DNA of 64,000 nucleotides, taken from NCBI RefSeq assembly GCF_001971725.1, contig NZ_CP019388.1, forward strand, positions 1,488,001 through 1,552,000. Reading direction: 5' to 3'. The position numbers and the translations under genes are program-made. Origin of the DNA: Winogradskyella sp. J14-2. Its GTDB lineage: Bacteria > Bacteroidota > Bacteroidia > Flavobacteriales > Flavobacteriaceae. Positions 33,944 to 58,598 of the stretch are shown one piece after another. How positions within the stretch are numbered: position 1 is the stretch's first letter; each line of letters opens with the position of its first letter. The notes under the pieces are model-generated. The model worked only from the letters and a program-made list of their open reading frames with translations. It made no database searches and was not told the DNA's origin.

Positions 33944-34039
33944 AACAAGTCATTTTTTGAGTTAATTTCGGTGTAAAATTATATTGTAATCGCTCAGTTC
34001 TCTAGAATATTCTGCGATAACACCTACTCCTTAGGTGGT

Positions 34040-35733: not shown

Positions 35734-35821
35734 AACGTTGATTTTTGAGTAAAATTAGCTGACTTTTTGCGGTGACTTTTTAATATTCTTTAATGCGACT
35801 TTCAGCTTAGATTAATGGCCA

Positions 35822-35834
35822 TTTAGTGTCGGTA
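35822..35834 (-). repeat. 13-bp motif, copy 1 (before GT2 gene)
   Basis: TACCGACACTAAA on the minus strand, 89 bases upstream of the GT2 start at 35733, in the only sizeable gap of its operon. It continues with ATGGCCATT, which resembles copy 2. Confidence 0.5.
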
Positions 35835-35857
35835 GACTGCTTTTTAAGTTGGCTTAA

Positions 35858-36481: not shown

Positions 36482-36483
36482 AA

Positions 36484-37686: not shown

Positions 37687-37691
37687 AATTC

Positions 37692-38849: not shown

Positions 38850-38850
38850 C

Positions 38851-40062: not shown

Positions 40063-40089
40063 TGGTTTTGACTTTAATTGGTTGAATAA

Positions 40090-41055: not shown

Positions 41056-41066
41056 CACTTAAAATT

Positions 41067-42539: not shown

Positions 42540-42581
42540 TTTATGTTTTAAAAAAACTAGCTTACTGCTTGTTTTACACTG

Positions 42582-42648
42582 CAAACATAGCTTTAAGACA
42601 GAGAGAATTCTGTTAGATTTCGATGGGTGAACGTTAAGTGTAGACGAA
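42582..42648 (-). promoter_or_regulatory. LytTR-type double site plus TAnnTTTG promoter (site A, before wzy-like gene)
   Basis: On the minus strand, half-sites TTCGTCTACA (42648-42639) and CCCATCGAAA (42627-42618) start 21 bp apart. After 28 further bases comes TATGTTTG (42589-42582), a perfect Bacteroidetes -7 box. The wzy-like ATG is 43 bases on. The same geometry is found at 47256, 51430 and 58985. Confidence 0.78.
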
Positions 42649-42704
42649 TAGAAACCTAATATTGACGAAGCCGTTTTAACGTTTATAACTTTGAGTTTTA
42701 CCTA

Positions 42705-42761: not shown

Positions 42762-44132
42762 TTATAAATCAGGATATCTTCTTCTAAATTGCTTAGATTT
42801 AAACCATAAATTCTTGTAAAACAAATTGGCACTTTTGAAAATTTCGACTACAGAAACTTTAATGTTTTTATTGAGAAAATAGGCACCAACCACAATACCA
42901 ACGGTTGTAAAAACCAGTGTTGATACGGCGACCATTTCAATAGAATGAAATACGTAAATTGATACCAAATCACCTATAATATTTGCCACCAACATAACAA
43001 GCACCTTTATAGCGTTTATATTAGGTTTGTTAATGCTATCAAGACCAATTCCTGTCATTCTATCGATTGGTAATAACACACCATATATGGATAGTATTTT
43101 TACAATTGAAACGATGTTTATTCCTGTAATGGTTTCATCTAAATATTGTGTTCCTGAAATGAGAATTACAAATTCTTTAGCAAAAATAAAAGTGACTAGC
43201 GACACTGCAAAAAACAAATAGGTTATGGCGCCAGAATACACATTAAAGAGTTCTTTAACCTGATGAGGTTTTCCTTCCAAACTCGCTTTTGACATTTTTG
43301 GAAATGCTGTTGCGGTAAAACTTCGCAACGGTATTTGCTGTATTTCAGTCAACTTTAAAGGAATACTAAACAAAGCTACAGCCGTACTACCAAAAGGACT
43401 AATACTTATAATTAAAATGTCTGCGTTGCGCAATAAATTTGTACCAATTAGTGTGAATGTGCTATACTTTCCAAAATTGAGCAGTGTATTTAAAGTGGCT
43501 TTATTTGCTTTTTTATATAGTAATAAACCATCCCAAGATTTTCTAATACATACCAAAGACGTTAAGGTGTTAATTACTAAAAAAACAATTGTAATTTCTA
43601 AAATTGAACGTTTTAAAACCAGTGTATTTACCACCAAAAAACTAAAAAACAACCCACTACTTAAGGCTTTAATAAAAAGGATGTTATTATATTTCATTTT
43701 AGCCTGTTGTACTACAAGCGCATTGTTTAGCGGTAAATTTAAAAACGCCAAAACAGGATACCAATTAAAAAATAACGCATAAGACGACCCATTAATCGCA
43801 TTGCTAAATATTAGTTTTATTGTAATTAATAAGGTTGCTATTATCAATGTGGCAAAAACACTAATAACAACATTTGCACCAATAAATCTTTCTTTGTTTT
43901 GATCTGTAGCACCAGATAAAAATCTAACCAATCCATTGTTGGTAATACCGTAGCGTAGCATTTCTACTAATGATCCACCAGAGATAAACAGTACCCATTG
44001 TGCAAATTCTTCGGTGTCTAAACGTCTTGCCAACAGTGCAAATCCGCCAAAACCGAGTAATGCGATAACTAGGTTTCCTGACAAGGATAAAAAGTTATCT
44101 TCTCTAATTAGTCTATGTATTAGTTTTTTCAT
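42762..44132 (-). CDS. Polysaccharide flippase (Wzx-type, MOP superfamily)
   Basis: A 456-residue protein with about 12-14 membrane helices, matching the MOP/PST family that flips lipid-linked repeat units (SLSGNLVIALLGFGGFALLARRLDTEEFAQWVLFISG split at the N-terminus; NADILIISISPFGSTAVALFSIPLKLTEI in the middle). It is 2 bases after the Wzz-like gene, so it is translated with it. With the Wzy-like and Wzz-like proteins it makes a Wzx/Wzy-dependent EPS pathway. Family features are remembered, not searched. Confidence 0.88.
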   Translation of the reverse strand: MKKLIHRLIREDNFLSLSGNLVIALLGFGGFALLARRLDTEEFAQWVLFISGGSLVEMLRYGITNNGLVRFLSGATDQNKERFIGANVVISVFATLIIATLLITIKLIFSNAINGSSYALFFNWYPVLAFLNLPLNNALVVQQAKMKYNNILFIKALSSGLFFSFLVVNTLVLKRSILEITIVFLVINTLTSLVCIRKSWDGLLLYKKANKATLNTLLNFGKYSTFTLIGTNLLRNADILIISISPFGSTAVALFSIPLKLTEIQQIPLRSFTATAFPKMSKASLEGKPHQVKELFNVYSGAITYLFFAVSLVTFIFAKEFVILISGTQYLDETITGINIVSIVKILSIYGVLLPIDRMTGIGLDSINKPNINAIKVLVMLVANIIGDLVSIYVFHSIEMVAVSTLVFTTVGIVVGAYFLNKNIKVSVVEIFKSANLFYKNLWFKSKQFRRRYPDL

Positions 44133-44134
44133 TC

Positions 44135-46459
44135 TTAAATATGGTTGCTAGTGAAAAACTGAAAACGGAACATATTTTTTATTCTAACTCTAGTTTTTGA
44201 TCGTTGTTTAGGTAATTCACCTAAAACCGTTTCAACTTCTTTAATATCTACACCGTTGATGATGAATTTAATCTTCTCACCTACTAATCCTTTTACGTGG
44301 TCTAGAATATTATGGTCTGCTTTTGTCCATAAACGGTTAGAGCGACAAACTAGTAATGCCAAATCTGAATTTGCTATTAATTCTGATGGGTAATTAAACT
44401 CGATTAAGTTTGGTAATTCTATTAAAATATAATCTGTGTTTTGGTTGTTTTTTTCTGATACTTCAAAGCTTAATTCATCATAATTTTTAACATCTCTATA
44501 AGCTATACTTTTGTTATAAACATAGTATTCTGAAGCACTTAAACCAGCTGTTGTTTGTGATAAGAACGGATGATTATAATCTATTCTCGGATCTTGATAC
44601 CCTAAAAATTTATACAACCAAGGTGATTTAGAAACACTTGTTTTAGACTTATCTTCATTTGAATGATTTAATACTAAAACTGAGTATCCAGAAGCTTTTA
44701 ATCGTTTAGCAATATTTGCGGTAATCACACTTTTACCTTCGTTACTTTTGGTACTAAAAACCGTAATAATTTTTGGTGTTTTGGTATTATTTTGCGCCTT
44801 AAAATTTTGATGAAAATTTTGCATCACAAAATCCATTAATCGGTCTTGCATTTTTACCAAATCTAAATGAGGTTTTGCTCTAAAAAGCTTTGGCAACATA
44901 CCAATTGATGGGATTTGTAATTTTTCTGAAGCCTTTTGCTCATTTTTTAAGGTATCATCAAAAAATTCCATAAACAAAATGGTAGCCAGTATTATAATTC
45001 CGGTGATAAAAACTATGGCTATAATAATGATTTTTCGTTTTGACGGCATTGGCTTTAACGGATAAAAAGGCGGATCTACAGCAGTTAAATTACTAGACAA
45101 TTGTGCATCTTGAAACTTTAGTTTTGCCAAATTAAGTCCATGTAAAATCTCTAAATATTCTTGTTCTGCCACATTAATTTCGCGTTCTATACGCTTAAGG
45201 TTGGCACCAGCTGGTGCGTAGGTAGCAAATTGTTTTTCAATAGCTTTGTTTTGTTGATTCATCACAGAAAGTTTTGCTTTTAAATCTTCACTTTCTACTG
45301 TTTTGTCTACCCAATCTGGCAAAACTTTTTTAATAGGAACACCATCGGTTGAGTTTTGAAAAGTGTACAACTCATCTACATTAGTTTTAATTTCCTTTTG
45401 AAGTGCTTTTGCCTGCTTTTTAAGGTTTTCTAAATGTTGTTTTGATGTTTCGTTATTACTAGATTTTGCAGCATACATTCCTATTTTATAGTTAAGTTCG
45501 CCCAATTCTTTTTTGCTATCTACAATGGCATTATTTTTTTGTTGAATTAACTCTTGTATTGCCAACTTTTGTTCTAATCGCTGCGCAGAAGCCTCAGACC
45601 CTGCCAATTGCGCCATTCCTTTTTTGTAGGCCACATCCATATCTTCTTTAACAATAGCAACTGCTTTACTCTGTTCGTAATAGTTAATGATATTGTTATC
45701 TTGATTAAATTTTAGTAGCTTTTGCTCTATCGCTTTCAGCTTTTTTTCAGATTCTGAAAGTTGTGCTTCAAAATATTTTACCACGGTATCAGACCCATTT
45801 TCCTTTAAATCTTTATATTTTTTTGTACAAACATCAATGTATATTTTTAGGGTTTGTTGGCAAATACCAGGATCGTCAATTTCGTAGCTTAATTTTACCA
45901 AATCACTAGAAGAAATACGCTCAACCTTTACTTTAGAAATGGCTTCGAGCGAATAATGTGGATCATCAAAACTCAACAACGAATACACAAAATTAGAGTT
46001 GTCGCTGTTCATCAACTCGGTTAAGTATAAGACGGTTGTCTCGTAATCTAAATTTCCGTTTTCATCTAGGTTTTTATTAGTTGCCAAATAGCTTTTTAAA
46101 TCTTCTGGAAGTATTTCCATCAATGCCTCATAAGATTCATCTGAAATAAATTTATGATTTGGTTTTCTTAGGGATAAATGCTGACTTAACAACCGTATAG
46201 CCACTTCTTCTTGCGTATCTCTAGATTTTATAACATTAATCAAGTTATCAAACGCATTGTTGGCTGCCAGATAATTAAATGTTTTGTCCATTTCTATAGA
46301 CGAACCTGAAGCAATACCAGTGTACAACATTGTTTCTGAGTAGTAACTTCGTTTTGGATTAATGGTAAGCAATACGGCCAGCAACCCAAAAATTAAGGGT
46401 ACAACTGTTAGAATAGTCTTGTGCTTTAGAATAAGTTTTATAAAATCAATTGGTTTCAT
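44135..46459 (-). CDS. Wzz/BY-kinase-like polysaccharide co-polymerase with degenerate ATPase domain
   Basis: A 774-residue polysaccharide co-polymerase. An N-terminal Wzz domain with a first membrane helix (about 15-32) is followed by a long periplasmic coiled-coil region, a second helix (about 475-495) and a cytoplasmic ATPase-like domain. Walker A is intact (FSTKSNEGKSVITANIAK, near 571). The Walker A' position reads VLVLNHSNEDKS, without the Asp-rich motif, and Walker B reads YILIELPNL with Glu for Asp. No C-terminal tyrosine cluster is present. It therefore probably sets chain length without acting as a normal tyrosine kinase. It follows the half-TolC gene. Confidence 0.88.
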   Translation of the reverse strand: MKPIDFIKLILKHKTILTVVPLIFGLLAVLLTINPKRSYYSETMLYTGIASGSSIEMDKTFNYLAANNAFDNLINVIKSRDTQEEVAIRLLSQHLSLRKPNHKFISDESYEALMEILPEDLKSYLATNKNLDENGNLDYETTVLYLTELMNSDNSNFVYSLLSFDDPHYSLEAISKVKVERISSSDLVKLSYEIDDPGICQQTLKIYIDVCTKKYKDLKENGSDTVVKYFEAQLSESEKKLKAIEQKLLKFNQDNNIINYYEQSKAVAIVKEDMDVAYKKGMAQLAGSEASAQRLEQKLAIQELIQQKNNAIVDSKKELGELNYKIGMYAAKSSNNETSKQHLENLKKQAKALQKEIKTNVDELYTFQNSTDGVPIKKVLPDWVDKTVESEDLKAKLSVMNQQNKAIEKQFATYAPAGANLKRIEREINVAEQEYLEILHGLNLAKLKFQDAQLSSNLTAVDPPFYPLKPMPSKRKIIIIAIVFITGIIILATILFMEFFDDTLKNEQKASEKLQIPSIGMLPKLFRAKPHLDLVKMQDRLMDFVMQNFHQNFKAQNNTKTPKIITVFSTKSNEGKSVITANIAKRLKASGYSVLVLNHSNEDKSKTSVSKSPWLYKFLGYQDPRIDYNHPFLSQTTAGLSASEYYVYNKSIAYRDVKNYDELSFEVSEKNNQNTDYILIELPNLIEFNYPSELIANSDLALLVCRSNRLWTKADHNILDHVKGLVGEKIKFIINGVDIKEVETVLGELPKQRSKTRVRIKNMFRFQFFTSNHI

Positions 46460-46477
46460 CTTGCTGTGTTTAAGACA

Positions 46478-47212
46478 TTAGTTGATTTGAATACCTGTAT
46501 AGTTTTCTAGAAGTTTTTTAGCGAGAAGTAAGTTAGATTTCGCCTTTTCAAACTCAGTAGCAACACCAGCTGTGATGTCAGAAATTCTGATATACTCATA
46601 AATTTCTATTTGTCCGTTGGTAAACTCTTTTTTTGCCATTTCCATATTGACTTTAGCATCGCTAAGATTAATGGCCTGAATTTCTAATAATTGCTCTTTA
46701 AGAATTAAATCCTCGTAAAAGCGTATAACAGTTTCTCTAATCTCATACTCTTGGAATTTTACCAAATTTTCGGCTTGAGAAATTTCTGTTTTAGCTTGTT
46801 TGATTTCAGATTTTCTATTGAAAATATCAAATACAGGTATCTTAAGATATAACCCAACACCATAGTTAGTCTGTGTTGTAGCACTTGCCAACGTTACAAC
46901 ATCATTACCGCTAACGTTATTAGAGAAATTATTAAAATTACCATATCTGGTATCTGCCTGTATCCCAAAATTTCTGGTCCAGTTACGACGTTTAGATTTT
47001 AGGTTGGCCTTTTTTACTTCAATTTCATCTTTTCTATACCCTAACATGCCGTTATTTGCTAATGCAGAATCTATTAATACTTCGAGCTCTGGTATTAACA
47101 ATTTAAACGATTCTGTTTGATTTGCATCTACGATAGAATCTTGAGCGAAAGCTAATTTGGCAGTCAACAAGAAAGTTAAAAGCACCTTAGATATCTTAAA
47201 AATCTGTTTCAT
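46478..47212 (-). CDS. Half-length TolC-family outer-membrane protein
   Basis: A 244-residue exported protein (MKQIFKISKVLLTFLLTAKLAFAQ signal) with one TolC-type repeat: a helical part (LEVLIDSALANNGMLGYRKDEIEVKKANL), a beta-rich centre (GVGLYLKIPVFDIFNR) and a second helical part (SQAENLVKFQEYEIRETVIRFYEDL). Full TolC proteins have two such repeats and over 400 residues. I take ATG 47212; 47224 is possible. No Wza-type export protein is in the cluster, so this could be its functional substitute at the outer membrane (inference). It is preceded by LytTR-type site B. Confidence 0.82.
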   Translation of the reverse strand: MKQIFKISKVLLTFLLTAKLAFAQDSIVDANQTESFKLLIPELEVLIDSALANNGMLGYRKDEIEVKKANLKSKRRNWTRNFGIQADTRYGNFNNFSNNVSGNDVVTLASATTQTNYGVGLYLKIPVFDIFNRKSEIKQAKTEISQAENLVKFQEYEIRETVIRFYEDLILKEQLLEIQAINLSDAKVNMEMAKKEFTNGQIEIYEYIRISDITAGVATEFEKAKSNLLLAKKLLENYTGIQIN

Positions 47213-47255
47213 AATTTTAAACATTTGTCTTTGTTAGACCAGTTGTAATTTGATA

Positions 47256-47322
47256 CAAACTTACGTTACCGATAGGGCGAATTCTGTTATATTTCGATGG
47301 ATGAACGGTAAGTATAGATGAG
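47256..47322 (-). promoter_or_regulatory. LytTR-type double site plus TAnnTTTG promoter (site B, before half-TolC gene)
   Basis: On the minus strand, half-sites CTCATCTATA (47322-47313) and TCCATCGAAA (47301-47292) start 21 bp apart, with CTTACCGTTC between them. After 28 bases comes TAAGTTTG (47263-47256). The arrangement is identical to sites A and C. Confidence 0.78.
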
Positions 47323-47364
47323 CAGGTAAGATGTTATGACTAAGTTATTTTAGACGTATTTAAA

Positions 47365-47428: not shown

Positions 47429-48616
47429 CTATACTGTACTTTTCTGAAATAATGCAGGTATGGTGCTAAGCAAAATTTTTATATCAAACCAAAATGAGTA
47501 GTTGTTACCTGTAAAATAATCAGCATATTTATTATCTAATGCTATTCGTTCCTCTTCAGACATATTGCCACCTTTCCCTCTAAGTTCTACTTGCCAAATT
47601 CCTGTAATTCCAGCAGGTGCTAAAAAGCGTTTAGACAGTTGGTCTTTGGTTAAGCACTCTGCCTCATAAACTGGCAATGGTCTATTACCTACTAAAGACA
47701 TATCACCTTTTATGACGTTAATTAACTGCGGCAACTCATCTATACTTGTATTTCTTATAACCTTACCAATTTTTGTAATTCTTGGATCGTCTACAATTTT
47801 GATGAAACTAGATTTTTTGTTCTGAGCCACTTCTTTGCGATAATTATACATATAGTCGCAAACTTTCTCATTTTCAGCATATTTTAACGGTGAGCAATAA
47901 TAACCTTCTGGCAATTTTGCACATTCAGGACACGGTTGGTCTTCTTTTAAATCTTCATTTTCAGTTAAAGTGTTGCTATACTGATTTTTTTTGGCGGCTA
48001 ACTCTTTTAATAATTTATCTGAGCCTTCTTTCATAGAACGCAGCTTATAAAAATCAAAGGTTTTTCTACCAACACGTTTTGCAGTGTAGTAAACTTTCCC
48101 TTTAGATTCTAATCGAATAGCCAGAATAGTTACTAACAAAAATGGCGATAATACAATAAGTATTGATGAGGCTACTACAACATCAAAGATGCGTTTTGAT
48201 AACGGAATTTTGTAAGATACTTTAGCGTTTATTTTGCCGTTCTCAACTTTAGTTTCAGAATTTTGTTTTGCTAAAACCTGGCATCTTTCAGTAATTTGTT
48301 TTTTAGACGTTGTTGTAAGTACAAAAAAGTCGTTTACACCAGCCTGAAATGCTTTTTTAAATACCGTTTGATTGTATTCCTTTACTAAAAGAATGAATGG
48401 AATTTTTGCGAGGTTTTCTTCTTTTAGCTTATTGTAGAAAAACAAGCCGTTGTTTCCGGTTAATTCGTAATCTGAAACTACAACATCTATTTTTGTGCTA
48501 GATTTAAGTATCTTGATAGCTTCTAACCCATTTCGTTTTACGATAACAGCTGTCTTTTTTTCTTCTTTTAACTGATTGATTAATTCTAAATCGTTTCCTA
48601 CGTAAAGTACTTTCAT
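47429..48616 (-). CDS. Receiver-like domain fused to EPS-initiating sugar transferase (WcaJ/WbaP type)
   Basis: A 395-residue fusion. Residues 1-120 look like a response-regulator receiver (VLYVGND, VVVSDYELTG with Asp49, LLVKEYN), but the second acidic residue and the switch Thr/Ala-Lys motif are weak, so it may be degenerate. A membrane helix (about 146-168) leads into a bacterial sugar transferase: VGRKTFDFYKLRSM, IVDDPRITKIGKVIRNTSIDELPQ, GDMSLVGNRP and GITGIWQVELRGKGG. An insert carries CPEC, YYC and VCDYM, possibly a metal site. The transferase should load the first sugar-1-phosphate onto undecaprenyl phosphate, starting EPS synthesis. Confidence 0.9.
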   Translation of the reverse strand: MKVLYVGNDLELINQLKEEKKTAVIVKRNGLEAIKILKSSTKIDVVVSDYELTGNNGLFFYNKLKEENLAKIPFILLVKEYNQTVFKKAFQAGVNDFFVLTTTSKKQITERCQVLAKQNSETKVENGKINAKVSYKIPLSKRIFDVVVASSILIVLSPFLLVTILAIRLESKGKVYYTAKRVGRKTFDFYKLRSMKEGSDKLLKELAAKKNQYSNTLTENEDLKEDQPCPECAKLPEGYYCSPLKYAENEKVCDYMYNYRKEVAQNKKSSFIKIVDDPRITKIGKVIRNTSIDELPQLINVIKGDMSLVGNRPLPVYEAECLTKDQLSKRFLAPAGITGIWQVELRGKGGNMSEEERIALDNKYADYFTGNNYSFWFDIKILLSTIPALFQKSTV

Positions 48617-48656: not shown

Positions 48657-49043
48657 TTACCAAGCACTTGCATAATGAATTGGATATAGATTTTTCTTTA
48701 CAACCTCATCCAATTCTTCTGGGTTAAATGGTTTTGTTAGATAATCTTGGGCACCTAATTGGTAACATTTTACACGTTCTTTACTTTCGGCTTTACCAGA
48801 AAGCATTACAACTGGCGTATGTTTAGTGTAACCCCTTAATCTAAATTGTTTTAAAAACTCAAAGCCGTCCATATCTTCCATTTGAATATCGCTTATGACT
48901 AAATCTGGTAAATTTGCGTCTAACCAATTCAGAGCTTCTTTGGCTGAATATACTGAAACCACTTCGTAGTTATTTCCTAAAAAGAATTCTAAAAGCGTTG
49001 TCATTGTGAGCTCGTCATCAATAACTAATATTTTTTTCTTCAT
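48657..49043 (-). CDS. Single-domain response regulator (CheY-like)
   Basis: A 128-residue receiver domain. The acidic pair is DDE (residues 8-10, ILVIDDELTM), the phosphoacceptor Asp is in LVISDIQMEDMDG (near 52), followed by VVMLSGKAES and DYLTKPFNPEEL with the conserved Lys. No output domain is present. It sits between uxs and the receiver-fused sugar transferase, so it may modulate the EPS initiation complex directly (inference). Confidence 0.93.
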   Translation of the reverse strand: MKKKILVIDDELTMTTLLEFFLGNNYEVVSVYSAKEALNWLDANLPDLVISDIQMEDMDGFEFLKQFRLRGYTKHTPVVMLSGKAESKERVKCYQLGAQDYLTKPFNPEELDEVVKKNLYPIHYASAW

Positions 49044-49063: not shown

Positions 49064-50005
49064 TTATTTGATAAGTGCTTTGAAAAATGAAATGGTTTGT
49101 TCAAGACCGTCGTCTAGGTTTACTTTTGGTTCCCAATCCAATGCTTGTTTTGCCAAAGAAATATCTGGTTTTCTCATCATTGGGTCGTCAGACGGTAAGT
49201 CTTTATAAATTATTTTAGATTTTGAATTTGTAAGCTTAATTACCTTTTCTGCCAATTCAATAATCTTAAACTCCACAGGATTACCAATGTTTACAGGATT
49301 AGTAAATGATGCATCGGTATTCATTGTTCTTATCATACCTTCTACAAGATCATCAACAAATTGAAAGCTTCTAGTTTGATTACCTTTACCATAAACCGTA
49401 ATGTCTTCGTTTTTTAAAGCCTGCACGATAAAATTAGACACTACTCTACCATCGTTTGGATGCATTCTTGGGCCGTAAGTATTAAAGATTCTAACAATTT
49501 TGGTCTCTACATTATTCTGGCTGTTGTAATCTCTAAACAAGGTTTCTGCTGCGCGTTTACCTTCGTCGTAGCACGAACGCTCACCAACAGGATTTACATT
49601 TCCCCAATAGGATTCTGGTTGAGGGTGCACTAAAGGATTACCGTAAACTTCGCTCGTTGACGCTTGTAAAATCTTAGCATTAACACGCTTTGCTAATCCC
49701 AACATATTTATGGCGCCCATAACCGATGTTTTTATGGTTTTAATTGGGTTGTATTGATAATGCACTGGCGAAGCTGGACAAGCCAAGTTATAAATTTCAT
49801 CTACTTCTATTAAGTAAGGGTTAATAACATCATGACGAATAAGCTCAAAATACGGGTTAGACATTAAATGAAGAATGTTCTGTTTTTGTCCTGTAAAAAA
49901 GTTGTCTAAACAATAGACTTCGTGTCCTTCTGAAAGTAATCTTTCACAAAGGTGAGAACCTACAAATCCTGCGCCACCTGTAACTAATATTCTTTTTTTG
50001 ACCAT
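49064..50005 (-). CDS. uxs: UDP-glucuronate decarboxylase (UDP-xylose synthase)
   Basis: A 313-residue short-chain dehydrogenase/epimerase-family enzyme. [15 protein letters not shown] binds NAD; STSEVYG and the catalytic YxxxK ([13 protein letters not shown]) are present; EANGPRM-like [23 protein letters not shown] fits UDP-xylose synthase closely. It converts UDP-glucuronate to UDP-xylose. The upstream gene makes UDP-glucuronate, so the pair supplies glucuronate and xylose residues to the EPS. Cytoplasmic. Confidence 0.92.
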
Positions 50006-50032: not shown

Positions 50033-51397
50033 TTAACCCACTAGTTCTAAACTTTTATTTGTTTCTTTTTTTGTTTGAACTGTTTTAACACCAATACAAG
50101 AATATTGGTAACCAAGATTGTGCATCTCTTCTTTATCGTAGATGTTTCTTCCATCAAAAACAACCGCTTCGTTTAACAGGTGTTTCATTATTTTAAAGTT
50201 AGGAATCTTAAACTCTGACCATTCTGTTAGTACTGCCAAACAATCTGCACCAATTAAAGCTTCGTATTGTTCTTCACAATAATTTATTGTATCACCAAAA
50301 TGATGTTTTGCCTCTTCTGCTGCAACAGGGTCGTATGCATTTACAGTTGCACCAGCCGCAAGTAATTCCTTTATGATTTGTAATGATGGTGCTTCACGCA
50401 TATCATCGGTTTGTGGTTTAAAGGATAATCCCCAAACTGCAATGGTTTTCCCTCTTAAATCACCTTTAAAATGTGAATTTATTTTATTGAACAACACTAA
50501 CTTCTGAGATTTATTTACAGCCTCAACCGCTTTAAGCACTTGTAGTTCGTATTTGTTTTCGCTTGCTGTTCTAATTAGAGCTTGTACATCTTTAGGAAAG
50601 CAAGATCCGCCGTAACCAATACCTGGATAAATAAATTTTGTACCGATACGAGAATCTGAACCAATACCTTTTCTAACATTATTAATATCCGCACCAACAA
50701 CTTCACATAAGTTTGCAATATCATTGATGAAACTAATTTTAGTTGCCAACATTGCGTTTGCAGCATACTTTGTCATTTCAGCAGAAACGATATCCATAAA
50801 AATTATGGGATGACCATTTAATGTAAATGGCTTGTAAAGTTTGTTAAGTAATTTTTCTGCTCTTTCACTTTCTGTACCAACTACAATGCGGTCTGGTTTC
50901 ATAAAATCGTCAATTGCAGCACCTTCTTTTAAAAATTCTGGGTTTGAAGCTACATCAAACGGAATGTCTGTCTTACGTTTATCCAACTCTTCTTGAACTG
51001 CATTTTTCACTTTTATTGAGGTACCAACTGGTACTGTACTTTTTGTTACGATTAGTTTATAATCGTTCATAGTTCTACCACACTCGCGTGCTACAGCCAA
51101 TACGTGTTTTAAATCTGCACTACCATCTTCATCTGGTGGTGTACCTACACTTATAAATACCACTTCAGAATCTGATATAGAATCTGCTAAACTGGTTGAA
51201 AAGCTCAATCGGTTTTTTTCCATATTACGCGTAATCATTTTTTCTAATCCTGGTTCGTAAATGGGAATGATGCCATTGTTTAAGTTGTCTATTTTCTTTT
51301 TGTCAACATCAACACATACAACGTCGATACCTACTTCCGAAAAACAAGCGCCTGTAACTAAGCCTACATAGCCACTTCCTACAATTGTTATTTTCAT
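50033..51397 (-). CDS. ugd: UDP-glucose 6-dehydrogenase
   Basis: A 454-residue enzyme oxidising UDP-glucose to UDP-glucuronate with two NAD+. Motifs: [15 protein letters not shown] at the N-terminus, [17 protein letters not shown], the catalytic Cys in [14 protein letters not shown] (about residue 264) and [16 protein letters not shown] in the C-terminal domain. Full length for the family. It is the first gene of its EPS transcription unit, with LytTR-type site C 69 bases upstream. Confidence 0.95.
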
Positions 51398-51429: not shown

Positions 51430-51496
51430 CAAACTTAGTTGCGATGGCACTGTTAGTTCAATAAATTTCGATGGGTAAACAGTAAGTGTAGACCAA
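51430..51496 (-). promoter_or_regulatory. LytTR-type double site plus TAnnTTTG promoter (site C, before ugd)
   Basis: On the minus strand, half-sites TTGGTCTACA (51496-51487) and CCCATCGAAA (51475-51466) start 21 bp apart. After 28 bases comes TAAGTTTG (51437-51430), 33 bases before the ugd ATG. Same geometry as sites A, B and F. Confidence 0.78.
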
Positions 51497-51651
51497 TGGA
51501 CAATAACAATTGGTGTTTTGTTTTACAGTAAAACAGATTGGATTTAGGCAGCTGTTTTAACGTACAAAGTGAGTATTTAGTTTTCTGAAGTTGTTTGCTT
51601 TAAGCTCAAATCTAAAAAAAGGAGATTGCTTTTAAGACATAGATTACTTAT

Positions 51652-51687: not shown

Positions 51688-51849
51688 CTGACTGCGTTAT
51701 TAATTAGGGTTAAATAATAATCGATTATGAAGTATTAAAACACTACTTACTACTGTGCGTTTGTGCTGTTAATCATTTTTTTGAAAGACAAAGGCTTTCG
51801 CCTTTGCCTTTTCAAACCATCAATCCAAAAACCATAAAAACTTATGATC
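51652..51849 (-). ncRNA. Candidate small structured RNA between ugd and the LytTR operon
   Basis: The 747-base gap 51398-52144 has no convincing gene. Within it, a TAnnTTTG match (TACTTTTG, minus strand 51863-51856) is followed by about 200 bases ending at a strong terminator. The candidate contains a long hairpin at 51780-51816: a 16-bp stem with one wobble and one bulge, closed by a GAAA tetraloop. Only tiny frames exist (for example MINSTNAQ). No -33 TTG is seen, so the promoter is uncertain. It does not match a riboswitch I know. Confidence 0.4.
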
Positions 51850-51973
51850 CTCTCACAAAAGTAGTATTAAAGGATACTGTAAGCCTCTACTTTTTGTTGA
51901 ATGGACTTAATCTACATATAGAATGCAATTATGTGTCGACGAACGGTAACTGAGTTGTATTTTTTAATCAAAT

Positions 51974-52006
51974 AAAAAAGGCAGAACGCTCTTTGCGTCT
52001 GCCTTT
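51974..52006 (-). terminator. Terminator of the H-NOX-kinase-LytTR operon
   Basis: On the minus strand AAAGGCAGACGC (52006-51995) pairs with GCGTTCTGCCTTT (51989-51977), one bulged base, followed by a T-run. It lies about 140 bases after the LytTR stop. Confidence 0.87.
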
Positions 52007-52125
52007 AATTGCTATTAATTCAATATTTAAACCTACCTTTTTGAATATGGTACAAATATAGAGTAGGTACTTGAGTAAAGGCACTATAATTCGCTAGTTA
52101 TCCTTATTGAAACGTTGAATAGCGA

Positions 52126-52138
52126 TTTAGTGTCGGTG
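52126..52138 (-). repeat. 13-bp motif, copy 2 (YACCGACRCTAAA)
   Basis: CACCGACACTAAA on the minus strand, 6 bases beyond the LytTR stop. Related copies are at 35822-35834 (TACCGACACTAAA) and 58021-58033 (TACCGACGCTAAA), all on the minus strand. The other two lie 60-105 bases upstream of genes, which suggests a regulator site; this copy has no gene directly downstream. Confidence 0.5.
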
Positions 52139-52144
52139 AGTTGT

Positions 52145-52858
52145 TTATAACAGGTTTAATCGCTTCATTAATTCTGGACGGTTAGAGCGACTTACCGGAA
52201 CAACATCCTTTTTAATTAACACGCTATTGTCTTCTATATCGATGATTTTATCGACATTAATAATATAAGAACGGTGAATTTTTAAGAATAGACTATCTGG
52301 TAATTTATCTTCAATCTTTTTTAAAGTAGAATGAACGGTATAATTCTTATTTTCTGTTTTAATTTGAATATAATCTCCTTTAGCTTCTACCAAGTAAATG
52401 CTCGGAATGTCTATTTTAATAAGGCGTCTATCTATATTGACGTAAAGATCATTACCTGAGGTGGTTTCTACCTCATCTGAAGTTTTTGGTTTTGCCTCGA
52501 TTGGCTGTGTAGTGCTTTCAGCCTTTTGTATAGCTTTAGCAAAGCGTTCTGGTGTGATGGGTTTTACCAAATAATCTACAATACAATCGTACTCAAAAGC
52601 CTGTATAGCAAAATTGGCATCTGATGTAGTTAATATTATTTTTGGAGGATTCTTGATGGTTTCAATAAAATCGAAACCTGTAAAATCTGGCATATGAATA
52701 TCTAGTAAAATTAAATCTACTTCATTTTGGTTGAGATATTTTATGGCCTGGATGGCGTTTGGAAATTCTGCGAGAACGTTAAGGTTAGTTACATTGGAAC
52801 AAAGTTGGGATATAATTGCTCTTGCTGTTGCTTCATCATCAATAATTATACAATTCAT
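52145..52858 (-). CDS. LytTR-family response regulator
   Basis: A 237-residue response regulator. The receiver domain has DDE (7-9), phosphoacceptor Asp53 (LILLDIHMPDFTG), ILTTSDANFAIQAF and DYLVKPITPERF. A linker (about 130-145) leads to a LytTR DNA-binding domain (LIKIDIPSIYLVEAKGDYIQIKTENKNYTVHSTLKKI in part, and LFLKIHRSYIINVDKI). LytTR proteins bind imperfect direct repeats about 21 bp apart near promoters. Sites of that form lie upstream of the EPS and signalling genes in this window, so it is the likely regulator. It ends the H-NOX operon, 9 bases after the Hpt gene. Confidence 0.95.
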   Translation of the reverse strand: MNCIIIDDEATARAIISQLCSNVTNLNVLAEFPNAIQAIKYLNQNEVDLILLDIHMPDFTGFDFIETIKNPPKIILTTSDANFAIQAFEYDCIVDYLVKPITPERFAKAIQKAESTTQPIEAKPKTSDEVETTSGNDLYVNIDRRLIKIDIPSIYLVEAKGDYIQIKTENKNYTVHSTLKKIEDKLPDSLFLKIHRSYIINVDKIIDIEDNSVLIKKDVVPVSRSNRPELMKRLNLL

Positions 52859-52867
52859 ACAGTAGGA

Positions 52868-53185
52868 TTATAAGGTCTTTAAAAAATCAGTTATGTTTTG
52901 TAAAATTGCTTCAAATTCAATTTTACCCTCTGTACTGTGCGCCATGAGGTTATTCTCATAATTAACAGCCATAGCATAACTATTCTCAAGGCCTAAAATA
53001 CTAATTTTATGTTTAAGCTTGTGTACATTTTCGGCAGTTTGTTTGTAGTTATTGGCTTCTAAATTTTTAAAATATATTGCCTTTTCTTGAGGAAATTCGG
53101 TTTTGATGATATGTATTATTTTTTTTTCAAAGTCTTTATTTCCACCAGACATGTTGTAGATGTAATTAAGATTAGGTTGTTCCAT
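52868..53185 (-). CDS. Histidine phosphotransfer (Hpt) protein
   Basis: A 105-residue helical Hpt domain. The phosphoacceptor is His55 in NVHKLKHKISILGL, the usual HxxKxxxxxxG pattern. It should carry phosphate between kinases and response regulators. Neighbours are a histidine kinase 4 bases upstream and a LytTR regulator 9 bases downstream. Neither adjacent kinase contains an obvious receiver domain, so a separate receiver (58062-58472 or the EPS regulator) may complete the relay. Confidence 0.9.
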   Translation of the reverse strand: MEQPNLNYIYNMSGGNKDFEKKIIHIIKTEFPQEKAIYFKNLEANNYKQTAENVHKLKHKISILGLENSYAMAVNYENNLMAHSTEGKIEFEAILQNITDFLKTL

Positions 53186-53189
53186 CTGG

Positions 53190-54338
53190 TTATTTTTTTA
53201 TAGTAAAAAAGAATGTTGTGCCCTCACTGACTTTAGAAGTTAACCAAATATTTCCGCCATATATATCTACGATTTTCTTTGCTATAGATAAACCTATTCC
53301 GGTAGATTCTAGATTATTTTCAAGTTTCTCAAAGGTGTTAAAAATTTTATCAAAATACTTTTTTTCTATGCCTTTGCCGTTGTCTTTAACATAAAACTGC
53401 CAAAAGTGGTTTTTCTCCTGGACACCTATTTCAATGATCCCTTTTTCCTTGTCGTTATAGTTTAAGGCATTGGTAATTAAATTCTGAAACAACTGTTGCA
53501 GCCTGTATTTATCGCCTCTAATAACCGGCAGATTTCTTTTTATAATTGAAAAATGACTTGGTACATGTAGGCTTTCTGAAATATCGTCTATAAGCTTGTT
53601 GGTATCTACATCATAAACTTCAACTTTGTTTTTACCAATCGTAGAATATTCTAATATACCATTTATTAGTGCATCCATTTTATCTACACTACTGCGAATT
53701 AATCCTAGACTTTCCTTTCCTTTATCATCTAACTTAGCGTCGTAATCTTCTTTTAACCACGTTGCTAAGGAATCTATACTACGCAAAGGCGATTTTAAAT
53801 CGTGAGATACCATGTGTGCATAGTCACTTAACTCTTTGTTTTGCACCTCTAAATTATTAAGCAGTTGTTCTTGCTCTTTAAATGCTTTACATGCTTTGAG
53901 GTTGATTGTAAATTTACTTATTACCGGTTCTAGTTGCAATACATCTTTTTTGGTAAGATTATCTTTTTTTGAATATAAAAACAAATAGCCTCCATCTTGT
54001 AAATTAAATATTGCGGTTATACCTCCATCTATAGCAATTGGCGCCATGGTTGAAATCTCATTACCAGAACTAACTATTTGTGCAAAATCTATATGATCTA
54101 GTAGCGCTGATTTGGCTTCATCTTTTTCTACTTCAATTTCTTTACCCAGCGGAATAGCATAAGTAGACTTTAGCACATTGTCTCTAGACTCTAAAATCCA
54201 AGCTGCATTGAGGTTTTTTCGCTTTAGTACAAGTTTAAGAAAAAGGTCACAACTTTCTTTATAATCTAAAGACTTTCCTATAGCCATAGCGTACTCATAA
54301 AGTTGCAATATGTCTAATATGTGGTCTTCTATTTTCAT
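53190..54338 (-). CDS. Sensor histidine kinase with GAF-like N-terminus
   Basis: A 382-residue cytoplasmic histidine kinase with no membrane segments. Residues 1-160 look like a GAF-type sensor (LDILQLYEYAMAIGKSLDYKESCDLFLKLVLK). HisKA carries the phosphorylated His in YAHMVSHDLKSPLRSID (near residue 180). HATPase motifs: NLITNALNYN, DNGKGIEKKYFDKIF, GIGLSIAKKIVDIYGG and GTTFFFTI. The start shares one base with the FIST stop (TAATG). By analogy with NO pathways, its activity may be set by the FIST protein (inference). Confidence 0.93.
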   Translation of the reverse strand: MKIEDHILDILQLYEYAMAIGKSLDYKESCDLFLKLVLKRKNLNAAWILESRDNVLKSTYAIPLGKEIEVEKDEAKSALLDHIDFAQIVSSGNEISTMAPIAIDGGITAIFNLQDGGYLFLYSKKDNLTKKDVLQLEPVISKFTINLKACKAFKEQEQLLNNLEVQNKELSDYAHMVSHDLKSPLRSIDSLATWLKEDYDAKLDDKGKESLGLIRSSVDKMDALINGILEYSTIGKNKVEVYDVDTNKLIDDISESLHVPSHFSIIKRNLPVIRGDKYRLQQLFQNLITNALNYNDKEKGIIEIGVQEKNHFWQFYVKDNGKGIEKKYFDKIFNTFEKLENNLESTGIGLSIAKKIVDIYGGNIWLTSKVSEGTTFFFTIKK

Positions 54339-55435
54339 TATTCAAACAATCCTACAACTATGGTTTTATTATAAAACTCTAAAAAGCCTTCGCCATAAGA
54401 TGAAATTTCGCCTAATGTTAATGCACCTCCAATAGATACATTATTAAAACTCTCTTCTAAAGTACCAGTTACTGCCGACAACTCTTTATCAAAATTTTTG
54501 TCTAGAAATAAAATCCTCGAGATGCAGTCTATAAGAATAGCTTTTCTTGGGGCTGATGCTTGCTTAATGCTCTCTTGAGTTGCTGACTTAGCTGCCTGTA
54601 TTAATGATTCTTCATTTCCGTTTAGAATATCGACAACCGTATTATCCTCTAACTCGCCAACACAAACTATTTCTCCTTTTTCATTTACCATTAATGGGTC
54701 TCTAACGATACACTCGGCACTTTCTTTTAGAATTCCAAAAGGATAGCCCTTAGCGATTTCAAAGAAATTATCTTCTGTAAAGATTTTACCAGAGTGTTCT
54801 TCTACAGTTTCCTTATAGACTTCAAAAGGATTTTTCCAGTTTATCTCTTTTATAATATTACCTTCAGCTCTTGTAACAATAAAGGGGCCAGCCACCTTAC
54901 TCCAGCCGTGTTTTACACCAATACTAGATGACATTTTCATTATGCCAAAAACGGCTGCATCTTTAAAAACACCTTCGTTATTAAACACACATGGCTGCTG
55001 TTTTAACGACAGGCTCCCTGCGCCTCCACCAAAGTAAGTAGTTTGCATTCCGTAATTTTCGTAAAGCTTACTTAAGTAATGCGAAATATTGGATGTTAAA
55101 CCATCTACATAAGTAAAAAGGCTATAGTTTTGGTCTTTTTCAAAATTAACTTTAGGTATGGTATAGCTTTTAGAACTTATGTTGTTTATTAAGAACATAG
55201 AATCTAACTTATTTAGTGTATTAACTACAATACCTTTATCTAAAATAGAATTACCATGAATAACTTTTGGAAACAACCCACCCATAAACTTTAGTCCCGC
55301 ATCATTAAGTTGACCAATTATATCTTTTATATCAATTTCCGTCTGCTCTCCAATAGTAATTAAAGCAGCATTTTTACCTACGTGATTAGAAATTGCATTT
55401 ACAATTTCAGAAGTTTTTGTTGTTGTTATTAGCAT
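54338..55435 (-). CDS. FIST-domain sensory protein (possible NosP-like NO sensor)
   Basis: A 365-residue cytoplasmic protein with FIST_N (about residues 25-210) and FIST_C (about 215-350, KAILIDCISRILFLDKNFDKEL, GGALTLGEISSYGEGFLEFYN). FIST proteins bind small ligands; a subgroup called NosP binds heme and senses nitric oxide, usually next to a histidine kinase. The conserved VKHGWSKVAGPFIV is present, but heme binding cannot be shown from sequence. It lies between two histidine kinases and in the same operon as H-NOX, so a second NO sensor or an amino-acid/ligand sensor are both possible. Confidence 0.9.
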   Translation of the reverse strand: MLITTTKTSEIVNAISNHVGKNAALITIGEQTEIDIKDIIGQLNDAGLKFMGGLFPKVIHGNSILDKGIVVNTLNKLDSMFLINNISSKSYTIPKVNFEKDQNYSLFTYVDGLTSNISHYLSKLYENYGMQTTYFGGGAGSLSLKQQPCVFNNEGVFKDAAVFGIMKMSSSIGVKHGWSKVAGPFIVTRAEGNIIKEINWKNPFEVYKETVEEHSGKIFTEDNFFEIAKGYPFGILKESAECIVRDPLMVNEKGEIVCVGELEDNTVVDILNGNEESLIQAAKSATQESIKQASAPRKAILIDCISRILFLDKNFDKELSAVTGTLEESFNNVSIGGALTLGEISSYGEGFLEFYNKTIVVGLFE

Positions 55436-55436
55436 A

Positions 55437-57419
55437 CTATTTTGTTAATGTAAAATGAAATGTGGTGCCTACACCTGGTGTGCTCTCCAACCATATTTTA
55501 CCATCGTGGAGATCAACTATTTTTTTTACTATAGAAAGACCTACGCCTGTTGAGTCTTTACTTTTATTTAGTGAGTGAAATATTTTAAAAATTTTATTGT
55601 GAAACTTTTCTTCAATACCAATACCATTATCTGAGATTGAAAATTGATAGTGGTATGGTAATTCCTTTAGTTTTATATCTATTTTTCCCTTTGGCTTATC
55701 AATAAATTTAACAGCGTTACTAATAAGGTTTTGAAACAATTGCTGAAGCTTGGTTTTTTCGCCAGTAAGGACAGGTAACTTATCATGAATTTTAACCTCT
55801 ATATGCTCTGGAATATATAATATTTTTAATAGGTCTTTAACCATAGTATCTGTATTTACTGGTTTGCTTTGACCTTTCTCTGACCTAATACTGGAGTATT
55901 CTAAAACATCTGAAATTAGTTGCTCCATCTTCTCTAGCGTCGTTTCTATAAGATTTAAATTTTGTAAACTTGCATCGTCGAGCTTATTCTCATTGTCTTC
56001 TTTAATCCATTGTACCAAAGCATCAATACTGCGTAATGGCGACTTTAAATCGTGAGACACTATGTGCGCGTATTCTTGCAACTCGTCATTACTTTTTTCG
56101 AGTTTATGGAGTAGGTTTTCTTTTTGTAACTCAAGACTTTTCAGGTCTGTAATATCTAAATGGATACCTATTGAGCCAACGACCTTTCCGTTAATATCGT
56201 AATTTGGGGCACCACTGATTAGCCAATATCTTGTTTCGCCATTTTTTATTTTTACTTTAATCTCGTAGGAATTTGATTCGCCTTTTAAACGTTTTTTACT
56301 CTCGTTTTTAATCTTTTGAACTTCCTTGTCTGTTGTAAAGATTTTTCTTCCTTGCTTGCCAATGAGTTCTTTTTCGGTATAACCAGAAATTTCTGCAAAA
56401 CTCTGATTAATCATGAGTATACGATCGTTGTTGTCCACTTCCATTAATCCCAAATTCATATTGGCAATAATGTTTCTGTACTTTTCGCGCTCTACCTCAA
56501 TACTGTGTCGGTATTTTCTGCTTAATGTAACATCTCTATATCTCCATAAATGGCCTTTGTATGTTGCATCACTAAAGACGGGAATATAATCGCGTTCAAG
56601 GATGTTTCCATTTAGCATTTTTAACTCATCACCGATAACCAATTCCTTTTTTTCTACAATATCGTTGATTCTTTTTACAAAACCTTCTGAATTAGAAAAC
56701 ATATCTTTACTTTGCTGGGCGGAGTTGGTACAGTCTTCACCTACCAATTGACTGGGCTTTAGAGGTATGTTAAATAAGTCACAAAATTTGTTATTTGTAA
56801 GTATTATTTTTCTGTTCTCATCTTCGAGCAAAACTCCAGAGTCTAAATTACGTATTAGTGTAGAAAGTCTATTTTTTGATTCAATTAGCTGCTCTTCTGC
56901 TTGTTTATCTTTGGTAATATCTCTAACAATACCTTGTGCTGCTATAGGCTTGTTGTCTGGTCCTAATATAATGCTGGCATTGATTTGAACCAGTTTTTGT
57001 TCGCCAAATTTAGTATTAATCTTTACTTGAAAGTTGGTAACAGCACCTTCGGACATTAAAAGGTCAAAGGCTTCCATTACGTTGTCTATCTCAGTTTGGT
57101 CTGCTAAAGTTACAAGGTTAAAGTCTTCCTCTTTTTTATCGTACCCTAAGAGATGTACTGCTGCATCATTCATCTTTAGAACATTACCCCATAAATCCAT
57201 AACTACATATGCATCGATGATATTTTCAAAAACACCCTTTAGCTCTAATGTGCGTTCTTTAACTAGTTTTTCGAGCTTAGTATTAGATGTTTTTAATTTT
57301 TGGGTAAGATTATAGAGTTCCGTAGATTTTTCTTCGAGAATTTTTTCAGCTGCTTTTCTAGAAGCCCTTTCGCGTGCTAAAGCTCTTTTTAGAATGTCTA
57401 TCTCATCGTGTTGGTTCAT
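55437..57419 (-). CDS. PAS-domain sensor histidine kinase (H-NOX partner)
   Basis: A 660-residue cytoplasmic kinase. An N-terminal coiled coil (about 1-60) is followed by three PAS domains (about 65-180, 190-300, 310-425), the last with PAC motif NGETRYWLISGAPNYDINGKVVGSIGIHLDIT in part. HisKA has the His in YAHIVSHDLKSPLRSID (near 455), followed by NLISNAVKFID, DNGIGIEEKFHNKIF and GVGLSIVKKIVDLHDG. It overlaps the H-NOX gene by 4 bases (ATGA), implying coupled translation; H-NOX proteins typically regulate their adjacent kinase. No receiver domain is attached. Confidence 0.94.
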   Translation of the reverse strand: MNQHDEIDILKRALARERASRKAAEKILEEKSTELYNLTQKLKTSNTKLEKLVKERTLELKGVFENIIDAYVVMDLWGNVLKMNDAAVHLLGYDKKEEDFNLVTLADQTEIDNVMEAFDLLMSEGAVTNFQVKINTKFGEQKLVQINASIILGPDNKPIAAQGIVRDITKDKQAEEQLIESKNRLSTLIRNLDSGVLLEDENRKIILTNNKFCDLFNIPLKPSQLVGEDCTNSAQQSKDMFSNSEGFVKRINDIVEKKELVIGDELKMLNGNILERDYIPVFSDATYKGHLWRYRDVTLSRKYRHSIEVEREKYRNIIANMNLGLMEVDNNDRILMINQSFAEISGYTEKELIGKQGRKIFTTDKEVQKIKNESKKRLKGESNSYEIKVKIKNGETRYWLISGAPNYDINGKVVGSIGIHLDITDLKSLELQKENLLHKLEKSNDELQEYAHIVSHDLKSPLRSIDALVQWIKEDNENKLDDASLQNLNLIETTLEKMEQLISDVLEYSSIRSEKGQSKPVNTDTMVKDLLKILYIPEHIEVKIHDKLPVLTGEKTKLQQLFQNLISNAVKFIDKPKGKIDIKLKELPYHYQFSISDNGIGIEEKFHNKIFKIFHSLNKSKDSTGVGLSIVKKIVDLHDGKIWLESTPGVGTTFHFTLTK

Positions 57420-57958
57420 AGTGTCTTTTTAATAAAAAAACGTACTTCTGTACCAGCTTTATTTAGTTTTTTAAAATTAATTTCTACCGGTGTTTTGAAA
57501 AGCTTAAATGTTTCTTGCATAAGACCCATGCCTAACATATACAAAGCTTTATCTGATTTGTAAACCAAAGTCATCTCATTTGCTGTTCTGTCTTCTAATT
57601 GAAAGGTTGGCAATTGTGCATCTGGATAAATTTTTTGTACTTCTACATGGATATGACTTTCTATAGAAGCCAGTAAACTCATAGGATCCTCGTAGTGCTC
57701 TACGAGATTTGGGTGCGATCGCACAAGCGCCTTAAACAAATGCTCTGAGTAAACTAGTAATAAATCGTCTTTTGAAATATCCGTGTGTTTACTTAAGTGT
57801 GTAAGCAGTTGAAGCATTTCTGAAAACTCATAAGTTCCTACTGATGTATAGATGCCACCAGATGGCAGTTGGGACTGGGTTATGATTTTATCTACCATAG
57901 CTAATCCAAACTTTTCTTCTACTAGTTCTAAAAACTCGGTAAATATTAGTCCTTTCAT
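57416..57958 (-). CDS. H-NOX heme-nitric oxide/oxygen binding protein
   Basis: A 180-residue H-NOX domain, a cytoplasmic heme sensor of NO (and in some cases O2). The start MKGLIFTEFLELVEEKFG and GIYTSVGTYEFSEML are family hallmarks. The proximal heme ligand is predicted as His104 in SHIHVEVQKIYPD. The heme-propionate motif YxSxR reads YKSDK (Tyr133, Ser135, Lys137), so Arg is replaced by Lys. It is the first gene of the six-gene signalling operon and overlaps the PAS kinase by 4 bases. NO ligation should alter kinase activity. Confidence 0.92.
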   Translation of the reverse strand: MKGLIFTEFLELVEEKFGLAMVDKIITQSQLPSGGIYTSVGTYEFSEMLQLLTHLSKHTDISKDDLLLVYSEHLFKALVRSHPNLVEHYEDPMSLLASIESHIHVEVQKIYPDAQLPTFQLEDRTANEMTLVYKSDKALYMLGMGLMQETFKLFKTPVEINFKKLNKAGTEVRFFIKKTL

Positions 57959-58061: not shown

Positions 58062-58472
58062 TTATACTGTAATCAGTTCATTAATGCTCCAATATGCTAA
58101 TAAATTTTCAATTTTTGAAACATATTCCTCGTATTTTAGAGGTTTTAAGATATAGCCTGCTATCCCAACCCTAAAACATTCTAAAAGATCACGTTGATTG
58201 CTGGAAGTGGTTAAAATTATTGTTGGAATATATTTTAAACGTTCATCGGTTTTTAAGATTTTTAAAAACTCAATACCATTTATCTTTGGCATATTTAGAT
58301 CTAAAAGAATAATATCTGGAAGACTGTCTTTTTTCTCTAATAATTGTAGAGCTTCCTCGCCATTATTAGCTTCTGTAATTTTATGATTTAGTTGCAAAGA
58401 ATCTGTAGCTCTTTTAAGCTTCATCACTTCGATCATGTCATCTTCTATGAGTAAAATATTGAGGGATTTCAA
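58062..58472 (-). CDS. CheY-like response regulator
   Basis: A 136-residue single receiver domain of the Rcp1/DrrA type (LNILLIEDDMIEVMKLKRA, phosphoacceptor in PDIILLDLNMPKINGIEFL, TIILTTSSNQRD, GYILKPLKYEEYV). It has no output domain. It is upstream of the H-NOX operon on the same strand, and its own upstream region holds a LytTR-type double site (E). It could receive phosphate from the PAS kinase and pass it to the Hpt protein, completing a His-Asp-His-Asp chain (inference). Confidence 0.93.
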   Translation of the reverse strand: MKSLNILLIEDDMIEVMKLKRATDSLQLNHKITEANNGEEALQLLEKKDSLPDIILLDLNMPKINGIEFLKILKTDERLKYIPTIILTTSSNQRDLLECFRVGIAGYILKPLKYEEYVSKIENLLAYWSINELITV

Positions 58473-58557
58473 AACAATTGGTTTTTTTTTCGTTTAGCGT
58501 TACAAAATACACTCATAAAGTAGTAAAAACTCATGTTTTCGACTAATCTTAATTTAC

Positions 58558-58588
58558 TGTCGATGAATAACAGATAAGTATCGACGAA
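58558..58588 (-). promoter_or_regulatory. LytTR-type double site E (before CheY-like gene)
   Basis: On the minus strand, half-sites TTCGTCGATA (58588-58579) and TTCATCGACA (58567-58558) start 21 bp apart, the best internal match of all copies. The start codon is 86 bases on. Unlike the other sites, no TAnnTTTG box is found at the 28-base spacing. Confidence 0.68.
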
Positions 58589-58598
58589 TGGTTTTTTG

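Follow-up and report, generated by a model that had tools for sequence, protein, structure and literature searches.

The DNA analysed here is a stretch of 64 kb (hereafter the window) from the marine bacterium Winogradskyella sp. J14-2, whose genome is a single contig of 3.35 Mb. On its minus strand it carries an operon encoding a stand-alone receiver, an H-NOX protein, two histidine kinases, a FIST protein, an Hpt protein and a LytTR response regulator. We propose, with a probability of about two thirds (0.68), that these form a four-step, multi-input phosphorelay of separate proteins (His-Asp-His-Asp) and that its terminal regulator directly controls exopolysaccharide (EPS) production. The architecture and the predicted EPS control are well supported by the sequence, suggesting gas-controlled production of the biofilm matrix without cyclic-di-GMP (c-di-GMP).

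A putative phosphorelay starting one gene upstream of H-NOX

The initial annotation of this DNA described six genes in the order H-NOX, PAS kinase, FIST, GAF-like kinase, Hpt and LytTR, with small gaps or overlaps, and regarded them as a complete two-input phosphorelay. Coordinates and domain assignments bear out this order, the intergenic gaps from H-NOX to LytTR being -4, +1, -1, +4 and +9, with all relay genes on the minus strand. The true start of the operon is a receiver gene (58472-58062), one gene 5' of H-NOX. The relay genes are as follows (FIST classes are defined below).

58062..58472, minus strand: single-domain receiver RR136, first gene of the operon (Response_reg, 4e-23)
57416..57958, minus strand: H-NOX heme-nitric oxide (NO) sensor (PF07700, 1e-35, residues 2-161)
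55437..57419, minus strand: histidine kinase 1, three PAS domains, HisKA and HATPase_c (Pfam), without receiver
54338..55435, minus strand: class A FIST sensor protein (FIST_N and FIST_C, 1e-23 and 1e-20)
53190..54338, minus strand: histidine kinase 2, N-terminal GAF fold, HisKA and HATPase_c, without receiver
52868..53185, minus strand: Hpt protein, 105 amino acids (Pfam matches of orthologs, invariant His55)
52145..52858, minus strand: LytTR response regulator, relay output (Response_reg 2e-19, LytTR 4e-21)

The idea of a multi-protein relay thus stands, but the six genes are not a complete one: both kinases lack a receiver, and the one that is missing is encoded just 5' of H-NOX. On the basis of known phosphorelay chemistry, this stand-alone protein would supply the Asp between the kinase His and the Hpt His. 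Its gene lies 5' of H-NOX in nearly all loci, and its phospho-acceptor D58 and the other receiver residues are conserved in 141 orthologs. The Hpt protein of the window, taken alone, scores below the Pfam cutoff; its assignment is nevertheless upheld by its orthologs, 31 of 35 of which match Pfam Hpt (best 1.6e-7), and by His55 in VHKLKHKISILG, invariant among the 35 aligned sequences. D53 of the LytTR regulator is conserved, and both kinases carry HDLKSP boxes, read from the sequence. All four relay roles (kinase, receiver, Hpt and terminal regulator) are encoded, and the three phospho-acceptors D58, H55 and D53 are intact; from this anatomy we infer phosphotransfer along the relay.

The N-terminus of kinase 2, modelled by AlphaFold with a predicted local distance difference test score (pLDDT) of 87, was matched by Foldseek to the GAF domain 5w10 (E 4e-5, template modelling score about 0.64), and this fold supports its earlier description as GAF-like. 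In the window genome its best paralog is kinase 1 (50% identity, 229 bits), followed by an unlinked kinase of 434 amino acids (213 bits) and then by nothing above 72 bits. Such paralogy agrees with several inputs into one receiver and is no proof of it. In its core, the 434-amino-acid kinase (L307; C1:350.1 kb of the window genome) resembles kinase 2 almost as closely as kinase 1 does, and no obvious sensor gene adjoins it; a third relay input is possible.

Conservation of the operon in Flavobacteriaceae

We surveyed 397 genomes sampled from Flavobacteriaceae, 146 with H-NOX and 251 without, and counted 147 H-NOX loci, window included. The order receiver, H-NOX, kinase, FIST, kinase, Hpt, LytTR was found exactly in 71 of these loci and the same order lacking the FIST-kinase pair in 55, so that 126/147 keep it with or without the pair. 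The combination had been considered unusual; with 71 identical operons it is in fact common in this family, and we rejected that reading. Since it recurs in 71 loci of different genomes, the six-gene order is not due to chance.

Non-hybrid HisKA kinases usually phosphorylate receivers directly. On this general ground the operon might consist of two ordinary two-component systems, with LytTR phosphorylated by both kinases and with RR136 and Hpt serving either as a sink for phosphate or as a supply to other regulators. We consider this unlikely, since RR136 and Hpt are kept together with H-NOX and LytTR in the 126 operons, the Hpt His is invariant and D58 of RR136 conserved among their orthologs, and in Aquimarina sp. 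568 (L288:8098-9582) kinase 2 is fused to Hpt.

Sensor inputs: H-NOX and two classes of FIST

Alignment of the window H-NOX to solved H-NOX proteins identified His104 as the proximal heme ligand. The YxSxR region reads Y133, S135 and K137, with Lys in place of Arg as in 6/145 sequences, and the closest solved structure is 6BDD, the H-NOX of Kordia algicida. Its description as an NO-type sensor is supported by the HNOB domain, the heme His and the YxS motif. Because heme His and YxS are kept and the protein is closest to the Kordia H-NOX, its most plausible ligand in this strain is NO, which is thus the likely signal at this input of the relay.

The FIST protein had been described as NosP-type. 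We observed that it scores only 29.1 bits against the NCBIfam NosP model NF041558, whose cutoff is 450. In the trees, the FIST proteins of the operon fall into class B, with 75 sequences (support 0.999), whose members also score below the NosP cutoff (57-84 bits), and class A, represented by the window and four others, which forms its own clade (support 1.0) and shares about 22% identity or less with class B proteins of the same operon slot. A C-x-L-H-N-Q-T motif, defined in this analysis by conservation, is present in 94/94 NosP-like FISTs; in the window protein L352 and Y355 replace its Cys and His. More generally, position 352 is Leu, Ile, Val or Pro in class A and Cys in all 94 sequences of class B and other NosP-like FISTs; position 355 is Tyr, Phe or Leu in class A (His in 1/80) and His in 94/94 of the latter; and position 176 is His in 80/80 class A sequences against Gly in 93/94. 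The invariant histidines of the two classes are mutually exclusive, which allows a direct test of the cofactor-binding residue; no statement of the NosP heme ligand turned up in the limited literature searched. In Lacihabitans and relatives (L257, L258, L260 and L263), a FIST with the motif C-E-L-Q-N-Q-T, in which His is changed to Gln, stands beside a class A FIST-kinase pair.

AlphaFold models the window FIST confidently (pLDDT 94.5). A search against the sequences of solved structures gave no match, and by fold the only and best match is the FIST of FBXO22. In a wider search, class A FIST was found adjoining kinases in many phyla and in methanogens.

The FIST proteins known as NosP bind both heme and NO, and they regulate the kinase next to them (PMC12570481). 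It had been suggested that the relay receives two NO inputs; in this reading the FIST would be a heme- and NO-binding NosP, and two sensors of the same gas, differing in affinity, would feed the relay. The window FIST does adjoin a histidine kinase (its gene and that of kinase 2 overlap by 1 base), its model is a confident FIST fold, and the invariant His176 of class A could be an alternative heme ligand. Nevertheless, the low score against the NosP model and the loss of the signature Cys and His weaken this double-NO reading, as does the separate position of class A, and a second NO input is unsupported. We consider it quite unlikely; judged from its sequence, the input of the window FIST is probably not NosP-type.

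On a core-protein tree (FastTree), presence of the FIST-kinase pair changes at least 26 times, a count that tree error inflates, and the pair behaves as a cassette. In Winogradskyella sp. SP247 (L211), a NosP-like and a class A FIST-kinase cassette lie in tandem between kinase 1 and Hpt, and in strain DT_120 (L223) a class A FIST and its kinase are found outside the usual slot, between lytTR and the UDP-glucose dehydrogenase (UGD) EPS genes and immediately in front of the latter. Inside the operon, the partner kinases of both FIST classes belong to one clade (support 0.98); the sensor therefore seems to have been exchanged on a relay-adapted kinase. We somewhat favour a modular sensor-array phosphorelay common in Flavobacteriaceae. 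Its interchangeable sensor-kinase cassettes (H-NOX with PAS kinase always, NosP-like or non-NosP FIST with kinase optionally, the two kinds in tandem in one genome) would feed one receiver-Hpt-LytTR chain directly controlling promoters of matrix polysaccharide and secreted-protein genes without c-di-GMP, and class A FIST would form a separate family of sensors that has an invariant histidine of its own and adjoins kinases across bacteria and archaea.

A predicted LytTR operator

K-mer enrichment 5' of the receiver gene gave ACCATTCGTC[GT]ACACTTA. The sequence CATTCGTC is found upstream of the receiver gene in 79/142 loci (0.7 expected), and the motif also precedes the gene 3' of lytTR in 22/56 (0.2 expected). 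It is a direct repeat with a 21-bp period. LytTR operators consist of 9-bp direct repeats with 12 bp between them, a period of about 21 bp (PMC6193735), and the putative sites, direct repeats of about 21-bp period upstream of their targets, have this geometry.

A position weight matrix (PWM) trained on 90 sites, window excluded, detected eight sites in the window. Each of them is on the coding strand and in the relay-EPS region, and seven have their centre between genes, where intergenic DNA accounts for 10.5% of the window. No match of 12 bits or more was obtained in 780 kb of control sequence of the same family, and column-shuffled matrices gave 0 or 1 match. The flavobacterial -7 box is TAnnTTTG (PMC9723704), and such a box stands 62-63 or 83-84 bp from the operator in 31/42 downstream promoters; in the window the spacing is 63 bp for the UGD, OEP and Wzy units and 84 bp for two orphan sites. 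As expected for a member of the Bacteroidota, a promoter scan with the E. coli consensus gave no excess over shuffles.

When an 18-mer of the motif was counted in the 397 genomes with one mismatch allowed, it was present in 92/146 genomes with H-NOX and in 10/251 without (p=1e-39); the regulon search across the window's own genome also used the 18-mer pattern only. Near the operon, the sites are on the operon's strand in 114/114 cases among the matches listed. Five of the ten H-NOX-negative exceptions keep a LytTR ortholog (62-83% identity), and two genomes, G311 and G115, have the motif no more than about 0.4 kb away from this ortholog, so that the motif follows LytTR rather than H-NOX. It is presumably bound by this LytTR. 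That another regulator binds it and that it merely travels with this neighbourhood is very unlikely, for although the assignment is sequence-based and the genome may hold further LytTR proteins, the motif has the 21-bp LytTR repeat geometry, tracks LytTR even where H-NOX has been lost, and has its strongest sites in front of the LytTR operon itself.

In other genomes the motif precedes the gene of a secreted protein of about 866 amino acids (49 loci), genes for STAS proteins (22), and glycosyltransferase, flippase and UGD genes. In many loci the gene of this secreted family (DUF6923; L062:2481-5162 and relatives) lies 3' of lytTR, and its start is preceded by the predicted operator at about 90 bp. 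A Pfam scan of one member, that of L062, detected a type IX secretion sorting tail; the family may consist of matrix proteins.

Predicted targets in the EPS cluster

An EPS cluster had been noted beside the relay, and UGD, NAD-epimerase, Bac_transf, OEP, Wzc-like, Wzx, Wzy and glycosyltransferase genes are indeed present. The link of the LytTR output to EPS, also suggested earlier, turns out stronger than claimed, with predicted operators at several EPS promoters. The sites and genes of this region are the following.

58549..58596, minus strand: predicted LytTR operator of the relay operon (PWM 51.2 bits; 77 bp before the receiver gene)
52101..52148, minus strand: predicted LytTR operator, orphan promoter just 3' of lytTR (25.1 bits; -7 box TATATTTG at 84 bp)
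51975..52006, minus strand: intrinsic terminator after the relay operon and orphan transcript (hairpin and T run)
51904..51951, minus strand: predicted LytTR operator, second orphan promoter (26.5 bits; -7 box TACTTTTG at 84 bp)
51457..51504, minus strand: predicted LytTR operator of the UGD-epimerase-receiver-sugar transferase unit (27.0 bits; 60 bp upstream of UGD, with -7 box TAAGTTTG at 63 bp)
50033..51397, minus strand: UGD-like protein, EPS precursor (named from sequence; ortholog 3' of the relay in L082, L102, L165 and L200)
49064..50005, minus strand: UDP-glucuronate decarboxylase-like NAD epimerase (named from sequence; conserved beside UGD)
48657..49043, minus strand: receiver-only protein of the EPS cluster (Response_reg 1.5e-29)
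47429..48616, minus strand: receiver fused to initiating sugar transferase (Response_reg and Bac_transf)
47283..47330, minus strand: predicted LytTR operator of the OEP-Wzc-Wzx unit (14.4 bits; 59 bp upstream of the gene, with -7 box TAAGTTTG at 63 bp)
42762..47224, minus strand: OEP export protein, Wzc-like ATPase and Wzx flippase (OEP, CbiA, Polysacc_synt)
42609..42656, minus strand: predicted LytTR operator of the Wzy-glycosyltransferase unit (32.1 bits; -7 box TATGTTTG at 63 bp)
34546..42584, minus strand: Wzy-like polymerase, glycosyltransferases and hexapeptide acyltransferase (Pfam; Wzy_C just below cutoff, 30.6 vs 31.7 bits)
35797..35844, minus strand: weaker operator-like site before a glycosyltransferase gene (13.5 bits; no -7 box found)
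34021..34068, minus strand: weakest operator-like site, before the STAS gene (11.4 bits; STAS genes carry an operator in other loci too)
33665..33943, minus strand: STAS-domain protein, distal end of the EPS cluster (STAS 3.3e-9)

Because a terminator follows lytTR, the relay genes and the EPS genes belong to different units, and the link between these is the predicted operators that they share. EPS genes were found in the neighbourhood of 41/128 loci against 0/117 control chunks, a count to be taken with caution since two seed proteins came from the test loci; seeds from the window only gave 18/128. The initiating sugar transferase carries an N-terminal receiver and adjoins a lone receiver gene, which suggests a further layer of EPS control.

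The two orphan promoters, on the minus strand, run into hairpins with no gene behind them (regions 51975-52060 and about 51780-51870), and the first meets a strong terminator within about 70 nt; small RNAs are therefore possible. Similar units of operator, -7 box and terminator are found in L062, L161, L200 and L210. A search for conservation of a small RNA 3' of lytTR found the short sequence in only 7/148 loci against 9/1170 control windows, and Rfam gave nothing significant on this region.

Proposed mechanism and its significance

In the scheme that we propose, H-NOX would bind NO and modulate the PAS kinase (kinase 1), and the non-NosP FIST would modulate the GAF kinase (kinase 2). Both kinases would phosphorylate RR136, from which the phosphate would pass to Hpt and then to the LytTR regulator. 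Phospho-LytTR would bind the direct repeats of 21-bp period, which lie 5' of the -7 box at a distance of 63 or 84 bp, and would thereby switch the operon that encodes it as well as three or more transcription units of the EPS cluster. If NO acts on kinase 1 as it does on HnoK, the kinase would be inhibited, and matrix expression would fall provided that LytTR is an activator; that it activates and does not repress is presumed here, as is the sign of the NO effect.

Several points weigh against this proposal. Both the relay and the EPS control are deduced from sequence, and a kinase could phosphorylate the LytTR receiver directly. The adjacency of relay and EPS genes proves nothing by itself since a terminator separates the units; the operators at OEP (14.4 bits), the glycosyltransferase gene (13.5) and STAS (11.4) are weak, and the majority of the other genomes have the secreted 866-amino-acid protein, not EPS, as their best conserved target downstream. 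Moreover, no match to NirK or NO synthase was found in the window genome. NirK shows no enrichment among genomes with H-NOX (20/146, against 51/251 without), so that we rejected it as a partner trait of H-NOX. The NO source would therefore be external or another enzyme, and NO probably comes from outside the cell.

NO-controlled bacterial biofilm formation is mostly known via c-di-GMP. The window genome contains no GGDEF or EAL domain, in line with the earlier remark that c-di-GMP enzymes are lacking, and the relay would offer a c-di-GMP-free route from H-NOX to matrix genes in a dominant marine bacterial group, with the exact promoter sites named. The operator also makes the question of flavobacterial H-NOX targets that of a genome-readable regulon.

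Comparison with known systems

In the Spo0 phosphorelay of Bacillus, kinases, a stand-alone receiver, a phosphotransferase and a DNA-binding regulator are separate proteins. The relay roles are distributed likewise here, RR136 being proposed as a Spo0F-like intermediate; unlike Spo0, the system has Hpt instead of Spo0B, a LytTR output, an H-NOX input and a single operon.

A survey of H-NOX neighbourhoods already listed FIST as a group 1 H-NOX neighbour; as summarised in PMC8738867, it does not include the Flavobacteriaceae relay, cassette or operator. As in the NosP-NahK/NosK systems of Legionella, Pseudomonas and Burkholderia, FIST stands beside a histidine kinase (PMC12570481), but that of the window scores below the cutoff of the NosP model, and the conserved Cys/His motif is absent from it. 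In Vibrio, H-NOX/HqsK and NosP/VpsS act on LuxU, so that several kinases, some of them gas-regulated, converge on one Hpt (PMC8738867), as predicted here; there, however, a hybrid kinase is used and LuxU feeds a quorum-sensing cascade, whereas here receiver and Hpt are encoded in the operon of the sensors.

The Hno network of Shewanella oneidensis (HnoX-HnoK-HnoB/C/D) likewise has an H-NOX adjoining a histidine kinase, phosphotransfer to response regulators and a biofilm output, the latter through c-di-GMP hydrolysis (PMC8846402). The same steps are predicted in Winogradskyella, but in a genome without GGDEF or EAL, where the output would be a LytTR DNA-binding regulator with predicted sites at EPS promoters.

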